Shown piece after piece: positions 5,542 to 10,828 of a stretch of DNA of 64,000 nucleotides. A program made the translations under genes and the position numbers. Each line of letters begins with the position of its first letter. The stretch's first letter is position 1. This DNA is from Bryobacterales bacterium (GTDB lineage: Bacteria; Acidobacteriota; Terriglobia; Bryobacterales; UBA6623). Location: the NCBI GenBank assembly GCA_026713545.1, contig JAPOOG010000034.1, positions 1 to 64,000 of the forward strand, written 5' to 3'. The notes beneath the pieces are model-generated. The model ran no database searches. It saw nothing but the letters and a program-made list of their open reading frames with translations, and was not told the origin of the DNA.

Positions 5542-7137
5542 TCAGGCTTGGGGGCCTGCGGCCTTCACTGCTTCGGATACGCCGCTGAACTTCTTGAAGT
5601 TGTCTCGAAAGAGGCCAGCCAGATTGCGCGCGGTCGCGTCGTAAGCGGCGCTGTCGGCCCACATCCCTCGGGCGTCAAGAACTTCGGGCGGTACGCCAGG
5701 ACAGCTTTTCGGAACCATGAGGCCGAAGATCGGGTGGTGCCCGTAGTCGACATCGTTGAGCGCGCCCGAGAGCGCCGCATCGAGCATGGCCCTGGTATGT
5801 GGCAGGTCCATTCGCCTGCCGACACCGTAGGCGCCCCCGATCCAGCCAGTGTTCACCAGCCAGCAATCGACCGGGTGCTCTCGCAGTTTCTGCCCCAGCA
5901 TCTCTGCATACACCCCAGGCTTACGGGGTAGAAACGGAGCGCCGAAGCAGGCGCTGAACGTCGCCGAGGGTTCCTTGCCGAGACCCCTTTCCGTACCGGC
6001 GACCTTCGCCGTGTAGCCGCTCAGGAACTGATACATGGCCTGCTCTCGAGTGAGTTTCGAGATGGGAGGCAGGACGCCAAAGGCGTCGGCGGTCAAGAAG
6101 ACGATGTTCCGCGGACGGCCTGCAACGCCGGGTATGACGGCATTGCCGATGAAGTCGACCGGATACGCCGCACGCGTGTTTTCGGTAATGCTGTCATCGT
6201 CGTAGTCCGGCGCGAGCGTGTCATCGTCCAGCACGACGTTTTCGAGCACTGCGCCGAACCGCAAAGCGTTCCAGATTTCCGGTTCCTTGGTCGGGGAGAG
6301 CCGAATGCACTTGGCGTAACAGCCGCCTTCGAAATTGAAGACGCCGTTGTCGCTCCAACCGTGCTCGTCATCGCCAATCAACCGGCGATTCGGGTCGGCC
6401 GAGAGTGTTGTCTTTCCTGTACCGGAGAGGCCGAAAAAAAGCGCGACGTCACTGTTCGGTCCCATGTTCGCGGAGCAGTGCATGGGGAACACGTTGCGGG
6501 CCGGTAAGAGGAAGTTGAGCAGGCTGAAGACGGATTTTTTCATCTCGCCGGCGTAGCGCGTCCCCCCGATGAGCACGAGCTTTTTCGTGAAGTTGAGGAT
6601 GACGAAGGCTTCGCTGCGGGTTCCGTCCTCGTTGGGGTCCGCCTGGAGTCCTGGGGTATAGATGACGGTGAACTCCGGAGAATGCGATGTCTGCTCTTGC
6701 TCCGTCGGGCGAACGAAGAGCTGACGTGCAAAGAGGCTGTGCCAAGCCAGCTCGGTGACAACGCGGATCGGCACGCGGTAGGCTGCATCCGCACCGACAA
6801 AACAATCCTGTTCGAAAGCGTCTTTGCTCTGCAGATAGGTCGAGACCTTCTGATGGAGTCCTGCGAAGTTTCGGGGCGAAATCGGCAGGTTGACCTCACC
6901 CCAATCGACGCTCTCCCGCGTCGCGTCGTCCTCGACGATGTAGCGGTCCTTGGGCGATCGGCCGGTGTATGGTCCGGTGAGAGCCACGAGCGCGCCGTTG
7001 GCGGCGAGACGGCTTTCTTGACGCCGGACGGACTCCTTGACGAGTTGAGATACGCTCAGATTGCGTTGTAATGCGTTGCGGTGCGACAAGCCGAATGGAT
7101 CCGGCGAACAATCGGCCCTCGTGTCTCGAATTGCCAT
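5542..7137 (-). CDS. pckA: Phosphoenolpyruvate carboxykinase (ATP)
   Basis: The product, 531 residues, converts oxaloacetate and ATP to PEP, CO2 and ADP in gluconeogenesis. The ATP-type family is shown by the substrate motif '[12 protein letters not shown]' (residues 54-65), the Arg/Lys metal-site region '[12 protein letters not shown]' (191-202), the kinase-1a P-loop 'GLSGTGKTT' (236-244) and the kinase-2 motif 'IGDDEHGW' (254-261). Length matches the family norm. It converges with the DUF1501 gene (24 bp between stops) and stands alone, so it probably has its own promoter in 7138-7250. It points to growth on amino acids or organic acids, in line with the peptidases and aldolases nearby. Confidence 0.97.
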
Positions 7138-7377: not shown

Positions 7378-10146
7378 TTAGACCTTCGTACGATACTTGG
7401 TTTGCAGAAGGGCGAGCTTTTCGTCCAGAGAGAGCTTCTTCATATCCCGTTCTTGGCGAAGCTTTTCTTTTCCGGACGGTCCGAAGGAACGCCGGGTCAC
7501 CTTGGCTTCTCGGCGCGGTTCTTTTTGCCTGCGCCGCCGCGGCGCATTCGAAGCTTTCCGAGCGTCGACACGCGTGCGGCCGGGTCTTTGCGCGGCCGCT
7601 GCCGCTGGATCCCTCATCGAAAGGGAAATACGCTTCCCCCCGTCTTCCAGGGCCAGCACGTAGACCTCGACCCGGTCACCGACTTTGACGGCGGCGTTGG
7701 GATCTTTGACAAACTTGTCTGACATCCGGGAGATGTGTACAAGACCGTCCTGGTCCGCGCCGATGTCCACGAAGGCGCCAAAGGCGGCGATATTCGTAAC
7801 CACGCCCTCGACTTTCTTCCCGATCGCCAACTCCTCGTCCGTGCGAAGCTTCACTTCCCGGCTGGGCCGGACAAAGTCGCCGCGTGGATTGCGGACGGAC
7901 GGCCTCAGTTGCTGAACAATCCCTTGCAGCACCGCGAGCGGAAACTCAGGGCTTTGGTATTCCTCCAGAACGACACTGTCGAGGACTTCCGGTTTCTCCA
8001 ATGCTTCGCTCTCGGAAACGCCGGCGGCTGCCAGGATCCTTTCGGCGATCGGGTATTGATCGGGGTGAATCCCGGTGGCGTCTAGAGGGATTTCGCCTTC
8101 GAATACGCGTGTGAAACCAACAACTTGTTTATAGATCCGTTTACTCAACCCGCTTACCGCATTCAACTGTTCCCGCTTCGTGAACCTGCCCTTTTTTTGG
8201 CGGTGCTCGACCACGCGTTTGGCCAATCGATCAGTCATGCCCGGAGCAAGCGCGATCAGGTCGACGGGGGCCGTGTTGAGGTCGATACCGACAATATGGA
8301 CTGTTGATTCCAAGGTCGTGCGAAGACCTTCTCGGAGTTTGTGGGCGTCGATGCTCTGGTGGAACTGCCCGAGGCCAAGAGTTCGTGGGTCGACGTGAGC
8401 AAAAGCGGCCAGAGGGTCCTGAAGTCGTTTCGCTAAACACGCCGCGCCTCTCTGGGCCATGGATGCATTCGGTATGTCGCGCCGCGCGGCCTTTGAGGTC
8501 GCGTAGATCCAACTGCCCGCTTCATTCACGGTGGTCCAGAAGATGTCCTTGCATCCTGCTTCTCGGATCGAGCTTCTGACGAACCTCTCGACATGTCGCA
8601 CGCCCGGACCAGTGGCCATGACGATCGCGTTCACTTCGTTGCGTCGGAGAAGTTCCACCAGAGGAGTAACCGACTCCCGGGAACCATCTCCATTGGAGCT
8701 TGCCAACGGTTTTCCAGGAAGGCTCTTGGGCACAGGCTCTTCCGACGATCTGTCGGTTGCGGAATCTGCGGTCGATGCCGGCTGATCATCCACTGGCTCG
8801 ATGCTCTCGGACCCGGCCTCGAGGCTCGCGGGTGCGGCGGCTGCGGCGGAGCCGTTCGTCGCGGCCGGCTGATCGGGCTGGTCTCCCGGCTGGGCCTCTT
8901 GTTTGGCTGCCGGATTGCCGTTTTGACTCTGTGTAGTGGATGAAGATTTTTTGGGGGGCGTGGACCGTGTTTTCTCCTCTGCCGGGCCTCCGCTGGCCGT
9001 TTCGGCATCTCCCTTTTCGGATTCCGTCGGAACTGGCGGTTTTTCGGCTGGGACTCCCTGCAAGCCGCCGTCCCGATGGATGACCGCTCCCTCGACAAAT
9101 TCACCGTCAGGGTTGATCACCGCGGCGCGCCAGCCTCCGGGACGTCCGGTTTCGAGACCGACGACTCCAATCCGTCCAGCGGGAGGAGTCATTAGGATCT
9201 TGCGGAGGTTTTTTTGAAAGGCTTCGACCGCTTCTCGATCGCAGCGCTCGTTGAGTACCTGGAGTTCCTCCTTGGCGAACGAACGTGCGATATACCCTTC
9301 GAACGCCCGTGCCGCTACCGCGCCGAGCTGGAGTTGCACCTGCGGTGAACCACGGGCGCCTTTCGTTTCCAAGAGAAACGAGACGGCCTTGTTTGCAGGC
9401 AGTCTGATTTCGAAGCGCAGGCCAATTTCATGGACCGCTCGTCGGAGCGCCATCATCTGCCGCCAAGCGACCTTGTTGCATCGAGCCTGATAACCAAGCA
9501 GATTCTTGTATTTGCCTTTGGCTGCCCCCCTTACGGACTGACCGTCGTGAACAACGAGACGCGCGCGTTGGCGCAGGAGCCGTCGTAATCCCCGACGCAC
9601 GGTAACGTCTTCGCTCCATGATTGCGCGATAATCTCACGTGCTCCTCGTAGCGCGTCCGCAGCGGTTTTGATACCGGCCTTCTCATTGAGATACTCGGCA
9701 GCCAGGGCTTTGACATCTTGATCCTCAGGCTTCTGAGCCTCCAATCGACTTGCAAGCCCTTCAAGACCCTGTTTTCTGGCCGTGTCTGCGGGGGATTCCT
9801 GTTTCTGCTTGAAAGGAAGATATAGGTCTTCCAGCTCCCAACGGTCCGTCGCCGACTCGCATTGTTCACGCAACTCGGGAGTAAGCCGACCTTGCCGACT
9901 CGCGGAGCTAAGAACGGCAATACGAAGGTCCTCTAGCTTGAGAAACTGTTTGAGGCGATTCTCGACGAGGCGAATCCGCTGCTCATCCAGACCGCCGGAT
10001 ACATCCTGACGGTAGTGTGAAATATATGCAGGTGTGGAGCCCGCCTCGAGCTCCTGTACAAGTCGTTCGAGGACTAGCAGGGGAATCTTCGCTTCCTCAG
10101 TGATCTTCAGGTAGGCCGAAGGAGGAAGGCCGGTTAGCGATTTCAT
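7378..10146 (-). CDS. tex: Tex-family RNA-binding protein with a large disordered insertion
   Basis: A 922-residue Tex/YqgF/S1 protein, a nucleic-acid-binding transcription accessory factor. In order: N-terminal helical Tex region with 'SGGLDEQ' and 'ELEDLYLPFKQK'; the YqgF RNase-H-like domain (from about residue 325); helix-hairpin-helix repeats ('LNTAPVDLIALAPGM', 'FTKREQLNAVSGLSKRIYKQ'); an S1 domain ('GKKVEGVVTNIAAFGAFVDIG'); and a basic Arg/Lys tail of about 75 residues. Tex proteins are usually near 720-780 residues. The excess is mainly a Pro/Ser/Gly/Ala/Glu-rich low-complexity insert at residues about 365-489, inside the RNase-H-like domain. The usual 'DPG' signature of that domain is replaced by 'VGLETG'. 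A GAGG motif four bases before the ATG supports the start. Confidence 0.93.
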   Translation of the reverse strand: MKSLTGLPPSAYLKITEEAKIPLLVLERLVQELEAGSTPAYISHYRQDVSGGLDEQRIRLVENRLKQFLKLEDLRIAVLSSASRQGRLTPELREQCESATDRWELEDLYLPFKQKQESPADTARKQGLEGLASRLEAQKPEDQDVKALAAEYLNEKAGIKTAADALRGAREIIAQSWSEDVTVRRGLRRLLRQRARLVVHDGQSVRGAAKGKYKNLLGYQARCNKVAWRQMMALRRAVHEIGLRFEIRLPANKAVSFLLETKGARGSPQVQLQLGAVAARAFEGYIARSFAKEELQVLNERCDREAVEAFQKNLRKILMTPPAGRIGVVGLETGRPGGWRAAVINPDGEFVEGAVIHRDGGLQGVPAEKPPVPTESEKGDAETASGGPAEEKTRSTPPKKSSSTTQSQNGNPAAKQEAQPGDQPDQPAATNGSAAAAAPASLEAGSESIEPVDDQPASTADSATDRSSEEPVPKSLPGKPLASSNGDGSRESVTPLVELLRRNEVNAIVMATGPGVRHVERFVRSSIREAGCKDIFWTTVNEAGSWIYATSKAARRDIPNASMAQRGAACLAKRLQDPLAAFAHVDPRTLGLGQFHQSIDAHKLREGLRTTLESTVHIVGIDLNTAPVDLIALAPGMTDRLAKRVVEHRQKKGRFTKREQLNAVSGLSKRIYKQVVGFTRVFEGEIPLDATGIHPDQYPIAERILAAAGVSESEALEKPEVLDSVVLEEYQSPEFPLAVLQGIVQQLRPSVRNPRGDFVRPSREVKLRTDEELAIGKKVEGVVTNIAAFGAFVDIGADQDGLVHISRMSDKFVKDPNAAVKVGDRVEVYVLALEDGGKRISLSMRDPAAAAAQRPGRTRVDARKASNAPRRRRQKEPRREAKVTRRSFGPSGKEKLRQERDMKKLSLDEKLALLQTKYRTKV

Positions 10147-10195: not shown

Positions 10196-10828
10196 ATGTT
10201 TCCGAGCCCGCGAATCAAGGCGCTGCGGGACATCCTGTTCGTCCTTCTCTGGGCGCTCCCAGGCACATGTTCAGCGGTCTTCGGACAGGTAATCGAGTTC
10301 ACCTCGAATGGGCTGAATTACATGACGTTGAGCCGCGAGGGGCTCACGCTCATGTACGCGCCATTGCCGATGACGATCCGCGATTTCGCGGTCGTCCAGG
10401 TCTCCTACAGTAACGGAAGCGGCGAGAATCAACCTGTCAGCCCGAACGATTTCGTTTATACATCGCACAGCGGACAGCGGGTTCGCGCCGCATCGGAGGA
10501 GGTCGTTGTTCGCGAGTTGTATCAGAAAGCTCGCCAAGCAGATGTCGTGAAGCTGCAGGCAGCCTACGAAAAGGCTCTGTACGGTAGCCAGCCGATTCGC
10601 TCTAGCAACGGGTACGAGTCAAGACGCCGCGCAGCGATCGCGCGGGGCCCGGAAGGCTTACGGGCGGCTGCAGCCGCCTCGGCGCTCTCGCTCGTCACGA
10701 TGCAACTGAAGCCGGGTGAGTCAACGGATGGCGTGGTGTTCTTTCCTTATACCGGCGAGCCTTTGGACTCCGGAACCCTGGATGCCCGACTGGCGAATGG
10801 AAAGCGTTTTCAGTTTCCAGTTCGCTAG
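10196..10828 (+). CDS. Secreted protein of unknown function
   Basis: A 210-residue protein I do not recognise. It has an N-terminal signal peptide (hydrophobic residues about 11-27, 'DILFVLLWALPGTCSAVFGQ'), then a beta-rich segment ('VIEFTSNGLNYMTLSREGLTLMYAPLPMTI'), a charged helical middle with many Arg/Ala ('ESRRRAAIARGPEGLRAAAAAS'), and a C-terminal beta segment ('GVVFFPYTGEPLDSGTLDARL'). It diverges from tex and shares the short 49-bp intergenic region. The start has no ribosome site but a -10-like hexamer just upstream. It is probably periplasmic or envelope-associated. Confidence 0.72.
   Translation: MFPSPRIKALRDILFVLLWALPGTCSAVFGQVIEFTSNGLNYMTLSREGLTLMYAPLPMTIRDFAVVQVSYSNGSGENQPVSPNDFVYTSHSGQRVRAASEEVVVRELYQKARQADVVKLQAAYEKALYGSQPIRSSNGYESRRRAAIARGPEGLRAAAAASALSLVTMQLKPGESTDGVVFFPYTGEPLDSGTLDARLANGKRFQFPVR

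Follow-up and report, generated by a model that had tools for sequence, protein, structure and literature searches.

What is a long, low-complexity segment doing within the YqgF domain of a Tex protein, and what has become of the domain that accommodates it? Both questions are raised by one gene on the minus strand of the window (the whole 64,000-nucleotide stretch of DNA that was analysed), whose product displays six Pfam matches above gathering scores in the Tex domain order of Tex_N, central region, YqgF, HhH and S1:

7378-10146, minus strand: tex, coding for a 922-residue Tex protein with an expanded YqgF domain (ORF translation and Pfam)
9904..10107, minus strand: Tex_N, residues 14-81 (Pfam)
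9217..9723, minus strand: Tex central region, residues 142-310 (Pfam)
8419..8679, minus strand: Tex_YqgF Pfam match, corresponding to the C-terminal part of the YqgF domain, residues 490-576
8110..8301, minus strand: HHH_3 helix-hairpin-helix domain, residues 616-679 (Pfam)
7882..8088, minus strand: HHH_9 domain, residues 687-755 (Pfam)
7612..7830, minus strand: S1 RNA-binding domain, residues 773-845 (Pfam)

Because of the insert, the Tex_YqgF profile is matched over positions 41-126 of its 126, i.e. approximately its C-terminal two thirds. An AlphaFold2 model of the protein (pTM 0.65, from a shallow alignment of 15 sequences, with part of the S1 domain below a pLDDT of 50) finds its closest solved fold in the Tex structure 3bzk, with a Z score of 33.6 over 642 residues, and hence displays the overall Tex fold; the next-best matches are SPT6 chains with Z scores of up to 25.0. 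A Pfam scan at E 0.001 detected no SH2 domain in the window Tex, and so nothing of the C-terminal tandem SH2 domains that mark Spt6. It is the single Tex found in its source genome (5.6 Mb, 99% completeness), in which seven other matches span the S1 region only. The ORF is a real Tex variant and a Tex orthologue, and judging from its predicted S1 and HhH domains it is likely to still bind nucleic acid through them.

In the YqgF domain, which also shows changes in its signature motifs, the insert lies between strand 3 and helix 1:

9145..9159, minus strand: strand-1 motif GLETG, usually G[IL]DPG, residues 330-334
8665..9063, minus strand: predicted disordered insert in YqgF, between strand 3 and helix 1, residues 362-494
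8596..8616, minus strand: strand-4 motif ATGPGVR, usually GNGTASR, residues 511-517
8509..8529, minus strand: strand-5 motif VNEAGSW, usually V[SN]E[AS]GAS, with the Glu kept, residues 540-546

It separates GEFVEGAVIHRDGG (residues 348-361) from LVELLRRNEVNAIV (residues 496-509). Measured from strand 1 to strand 4, the window Tex has 180 residues versus 54-56 in Tex proteins without an insert there, which makes about 124 extra residues. The insert lacks Phe, Tyr and Trp, has three Arg in 132 residues and a net charge of -10, and is made up to 90% of Ala, Pro, Glu, Ser, Thr, Gln, Gly, Asp, Asn and Lys; by charge and hydropathy it is one of the 26, among 29 inserts measured, that lie on the disordered side of the dividing line. 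In the AlphaFold2 model residues 360-492 have a pLDDT of about 25-35 and are without confident structure, flanked by a strand at 350-356 and a helix at 494-502; as the insert is covered by just three of the 15 sequences in the alignment, low confidence is expected there anyway and is by itself no proof of disorder, for which composition provides a second argument. Based on composition and model confidence together, the insert is predicted to be disordered. These results bear out an earlier note on this DNA, which had claimed a disordered insert of about 123 residues in the RNase-H-like domain of a Tex protein, and correct its figure of some 25 residues for the equivalent gap in other Tex proteins, which is about 9-13 residues. 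A 60-residue stretch with at most 10% hydrophobic residues occurs in two of the 52 largely non-overlapping ORFs of the window, tex being one; the other, of 213 residues at 592-1233, is possibly spurious. As a candidate origin of the window insert, a repeat array was rejected, a 9-base unit in 2.4 copies being all that was found.

Across the sample of family f1, to which the window belongs (18 genomes, 17 with a Tex; G004, which is 93% complete, gave none), an in-frame insert of 70-197 residues occupies the strand 3-helix 1 loop in all 17 Tex proteins, a position filled by 9-11 residues in 11 Tex of family f3 and in 10 from outgroups. Its place and type of composition hold throughout f1, the sequences differ strongly, and no short motif common to them was seen by eye; conservation within the lineage, which the earlier note had proposed to check, thus extends to position and not to sequence or length. 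By eye, many f1 Tex proteins have a basic patch just before helix 1, which is absent from the window Tex. The nearest species (G001 and G002, with Tex protein identities of 95% and 65%) carry the insert in frame, and the 132 insert codons aligned between the two closest species show no indels. The dN/dS of the insert was 0.20-0.84 (estimable in 10 of 11 species pairs) versus 0.05-0.20 for the rest of Tex, and it was higher in the insert than elsewhere in the protein in 10 of 10 pairs and than in the C-terminal tail in eight of nine comparable pairs, with the pairs partly sharing species and synonymous change near saturation for G000-G002. With the insert dN/dS below 1 and no indels between the closest species, the reading frame is therefore maintained, and Tex outside the insert is under purifying selection.

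We defined an intact YqgF signature, by a criterion of this study rather than a published one, as Asp-Pro-[GA] in strand 1, GNGT after strand 4 and Glu in strand 5. Each of the 70 insertless Tex proteins retains the strand-1 Asp, GNGT and the strand-5 Glu; of the 30 insert-bearing ones, three keep the full set and the other 27 have eroded motifs. The window Tex has ETG (residues 332-334) and, in place of GNGT, ATGP, with the strand-5 Glu (E542) alone retained. The altered 'DPG' signature, to which attention had already been drawn, proves to be family-wide: strand 1 has Glu in 17 of 17 f1 Tex proteins, GNGT is found in none of the 17, and the strand-5 Glu persists in five, including the window Tex. 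As its strand-1 Asp is Glu, the window Tex does not display the carboxylate set of active RNase H-like nucleases. In Tex, according to the available excerpt of PMC3985635, the second carboxylate has moved to strand 5, the third is missing and nuclease activity is not corroborated; therefore the domain was probably not a nuclease ancestrally, yet its pocket was conserved for something. YqgF identity to six gammaproteobacterial Tex proteins is 29% in f1, 38% in the second Tex copy of family f39, 37.5% in genus g37 of family f5, and 57%, 42% and 35% in genera g46/g60, g33 and g63 of family f9, versus 58% and 56% in the insertless Tex of f3 and f5.

We then examined Acidobacteriota beyond f1 by means of a class scan (151 genomes, 55 with a Tex at E 1e-30) and a phylum scan (99 genomes, 33 with a Tex). 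Inserts in the same loop as in f1 were recovered in genus g37 (L088, whose insert has 13.8 copies of a 24-base repeat, and the fragment L089) and in two f39 genomes (L098 in G259, L099 in G215), each of which additionally codes for a canonical Tex (L125 and L126, respectively) that retains DPGFRTG, with SEAGASVYSAS seen in L126. In f9, all 10 Tex proteins (L062, L063, L080-L087) carry an insert between helix 2 and strand 5. Among 100 aligned Tex proteins these two YqgF sites account for every internal insert of at least 12 residues (within residues 14-846), with 20 sequences carrying one between strand 3 and helix 1 and 10 between helix 2 and strand 5; long Tex proteins were fetched deliberately, so that 30 in 100 is not a frequency. 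Each of the 29 inserts measured has no or one aromatic residue, and 15 of them contain tandem repeats, whose periods, where shown, are all divisible by 3; from this we propose growth by in-frame repeats. Charge is not conserved, 25 of 30 inserts being acidic and five basic. In Pseudomonadota (60 genomes searched, 45 with a Tex) none of the 41 genomes with both flanking stretches matched has a strand 3-helix 1 gap longer than 27 residues, and among viral contigs four pattern matches included no relative. Tex itself is patchy in Acidobacteriota: at E 1e-30 with a divergent query there was no match in 96 of 151 class and 66 of 99 phylum genomes, or, among genomes at least 90% complete, in 80 of 126 and 55 of 87, respectively. 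The open-access literature matches listed contained no description of such Tex inserts, which does not prove that none exists.

Trees from columns outside YqgF resolve f1, f9 and the second copy of f39 as distinct branches, with five insertless f5 Tex proteins forming the sister group of g37. An AU test rejected a clade of f1 and g37 (p 0.016) and one of f1, g37 and f39 (p 0.004) but not one of f1 and f39 (p 0.51), p values that are approximate owing to long branches and to groups named after the first tree was seen. This speaks against a single origin of the strand 3-helix 1 inserts of f1 and g37, and the similar inserts elsewhere in Acidobacteriota are apparently separate gains. The simplest account has at least two gains of inserts at the strand 3-helix 1 site and a single gain at the helix 2-strand 5 site; one ancient gain with many losses is a less simple alternative. 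As to the order of events, three f9 species (of g46 and g60) combine intact motifs with the helix 2-strand 5 insert, so that insert and erosion are separable, whereas in the three lineages with strand 3-helix 1 inserts the two occur together in 20 of 20 Tex proteins. The compatibility of the f9 insert with an intact domain suggests that there the insert came first and erosion later; the link between insert and motif loss involves few independent lineages, and a test of independent pairs for it had two to three pairs and no power. The RNase H-like core has the strand order 32145, with strand 2 antiparallel to the others (available excerpt of PMC3985635), and from this topology the strand 3-helix 1 loop would be situated on the edge of the sheet that bears the motifs (which follow strands 1, 4 and 5), and the helix 2-strand 5 loop on the opposite one. 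Such opposite placement would explain the intact motifs in f9 versus the erosion at the first site, although few lineages are involved.

C-terminal to the S1 domain is a further distinctive element:

7381..7608, minus strand: basic tail with a net charge of +17, ending in the conserved peptide LSLDEKLALLQTKYRTKV, residues 847-922

At 76 residues and +17, this tail exceeds the median of 42 residues and +6 for 53 insertless acidobacterial Tex proteins (range 6-180 residues, -1 to +19) and is close to that of the 30 insert-bearing ones (79 residues, +17). Its description as unusually long and basic thus holds against the insertless median, but not against five insertless f5 Tex proteins, which among those lacking an insert are closest to g37 and f9 and have tails of 68-126 residues and +12 to +17. 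A dedicated electrostatic pairing of insert and basic tail, which we also considered, is weakened by the equally basic tails of insertless f5 and by the five of 30 inserts that are basic. The last approximately 18 residues are conserved as [LM]S-x-x-[ED]K-[LI]-x-x-L-x-x-[KR]-[YFW] in most Tex proteins of f1, f3, f5, f9, f11 and the f39 second copy, and are helical, with modest confidence, in the AlphaFold2 model of the window Tex. This acidobacterial peptide (LS..EKL..L..K[YFW]; 7381-7434 in the window, loci L001-L124) follows a variable basic linker and is possibly a docking motif; several Tex proteins of other phyla end in another short, Ala-rich peptide (e.g. ...GALA.AFAKA.). In one f9 Tex (L086, from G106) the C-terminus is out of register with the conserved peptide of its relatives, as by a late frameshift.

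Two neighbouring genes were also recorded. Divergent from tex and separated from it by about 50 bases is a 210-residue ORF (10196-10828, plus strand), which has no Pfam match at E 0.01 and starts with a hydrophobic stretch that by eye resembles a signal peptide; a homologue shows the same divergent arrangement in all seven other f1 flanks examined, and around the insert-bearing tex genes of g37 and f39 no homologue was found. Directly downstream of tex is an ATP-type PEP carboxykinase gene (5542-7137, minus strand), which neighbours tex in G002 and G003 too; a search of the tex flanks of G005, G006, G008 and G012 did not find it.

We propose, with a probability of roughly 0.55, that Tex is selected as a whole in these lineages, that the role of the YqgF pocket has been lost, and that the insert is a long, flexible, mostly acidic passive loop. 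Under this proposal the YqgF domain would no longer perform the task of the conserved pocket of other bacterial Tex proteins, and nucleic acid would still be bound by Tex_N, HhH and S1; the insert might form a solvated, mostly acidic spacer, a 'bristle' covering or shielding a pocket that is dead, a passive mode being the most likely, and changes in loop length would probably come about through the in-frame expansion of repeats. Several observations pull in other directions: the presence of the insert in every f1 Tex and its recurrence elsewhere could mean a selected function, its dN/dS is below 1, insert and erosion are separable in g46 and g60, the window insert has no real repeat array, and identity to the gammaproteobacterial Tex proteins fell outside YqgF too (30% in f1 versus 48% in insertless f3), so that a new function rather than pocket loss might be at work.

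The main rival, which we regard as a tentative possibility, is that the insert constitutes an active recruiting or regulating arm, either tethering a partner such as RNA polymerase, the ribosome or another molecule, or occupying S1, HhH and the basic tail in competition with nucleic acid. Its occurrence in 17 of 17 f1 Tex proteins, the rejection of a single f1 and g37 clade (p 0.016) together with the use of a second loop in f9, and the basic patch before helix 1 that by eye recurs in f1 outside the window Tex are what such an arm would lead one to expect, as are the 25 of 30 net acidic inserts in proteins with a basic tail, although the five positive inserts and the equally basic tails in proteins without inserts speak against an electrostatic partnership. 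Likewise, the use of a disordered region by eukaryotic Spt6 offers a parallel, SPT6 being the next-best fold (Z up to 25.0) and the title of PDB entry 7o6b linking disordered and ordered regions of Spt6; the absence of any family-wide short motif by eye speaks against such an arm, as does the weaker constraint on the insert than on the remainder of Tex (10 of 10 pairs) and than on the tail (eight of nine). A bolder form of the recruiting idea, which we consider rather unlikely, is that in Acidobacteriota the YqgF pocket of Tex was repeatedly converted to a platform on which a long and mostly acidic disordered arm is anchored, either on the edge of the pocket (f1, g37 and the second f39 Tex) or on the opposite one (f9), as a counterpart of the Spt6 arm that recruits transcription partners; the second Tex of f39, duplicated or acquired, would have done so as the other stayed canonical.

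It is improbable that the insert is a neutral ratchet, i.e. an unselected loop expanded by slippage under relaxed constraint in a domain heading to loss. The repeats in 15 of 29 inserts, the raised insert dN/dS and the erosion of motifs in 27 of 30 insert-bearing Tex proteins are consistent with it, but f1 is without any insert-free Tex despite deep divergence, and in the g46/g60 Tex of f9 a YqgF identity of 57%, against 56-58% in insertless proteins, indicates that relaxation was no precondition there. Phase separation of Tex through the insert, which the earlier note had raised and for which a long, low-complexity, predicted disordered segment alongside an S1 RNA-binding domain might be cited, is highly unlikely given the absence of aromatic residues in the window insert (and at most one in each of the 29 measured), its three Arg in 132 residues, and the strong variation of insert length and charge between species. 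An assembly, frameshift or start-site artefact, for which insert-free relatives together with a frameshift or assembly-error signature had been named as the signs, is of negligible probability, as the two nearest species and all 17 f1 Tex proteins carry the insert in frame, without an indel in 132 codons between the closest two.

The case bears on the role of YqgF in Tex and in its eukaryotic relative Spt6, the motifs being highly conserved (70 of 70 insertless Tex proteins) and yet nuclease activity, according to the available excerpt of PMC3985635, not corroborated. The insert-bearing lineages may serve as natural experiments in which the pocket appears lost and the protein is still selected, and the f39 genomes with a canonical and an insert-bearing Tex allow direct comparison. 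Were the insert to recruit partners instead, it would represent an Spt6-like disordered arm in bacteria; the recurrent inserts also mark the YqgF domain of Tex as one that can be rebuilt.

Among known systems, E. coli YhgF is a bacterial Tex. YhgF is listed among proteins co-purified with an sRNA in the available part of PMC4824073, and a comparison of Spt6 with Tex, as far as its available part goes, has no bearing on the insert (PMC13289920). The Tex of Pseudomonas aeruginosa, PA5201 (PDB 3bzk, 3bzc and 2oce), has the same domain order (available part of PMC13340108). These solved bacterial structures share the fold of the window Tex, with 27-28% identity over 624-642 aligned residues, from which the window protein differs by its insert of about 124 residues, its loss of DPG and GNGT and its length of 922 versus 780-785 residues. 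In eukaryotic Spt6 the main disorder is N-terminal and tandem SH2 domains are found at the C-terminus. Spt6 shares the core fold with the window Tex, and the title of 7o6b points to the importance of a disordered region; it differs in the SH2 domains at its end, to which nothing in the window Tex matches. In RNase H-like 3'-5' exonucleases and the exonuclease of B-family polymerases, strand 3-helix 1 and helix 2-strand 5 are known insertion points (available excerpt of PMC3985635), at which the insertions are secondary-structure elements, the first region carrying residues that bind the substrate end; in the window Tex, by contrast, the insert is predicted to be disordered and the active-site motifs are eroded. 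A further parallel is provided by the Tex proteins of f9, which share with the window Tex a long YqgF insert rich in Ala, Pro, Glu and Ser (10 of 10), a basic tail and mostly the same type of C-terminal peptide, but have the insert between helix 2 and strand 5 and, in g46 and g60 (three of 10), keep their motifs intact.
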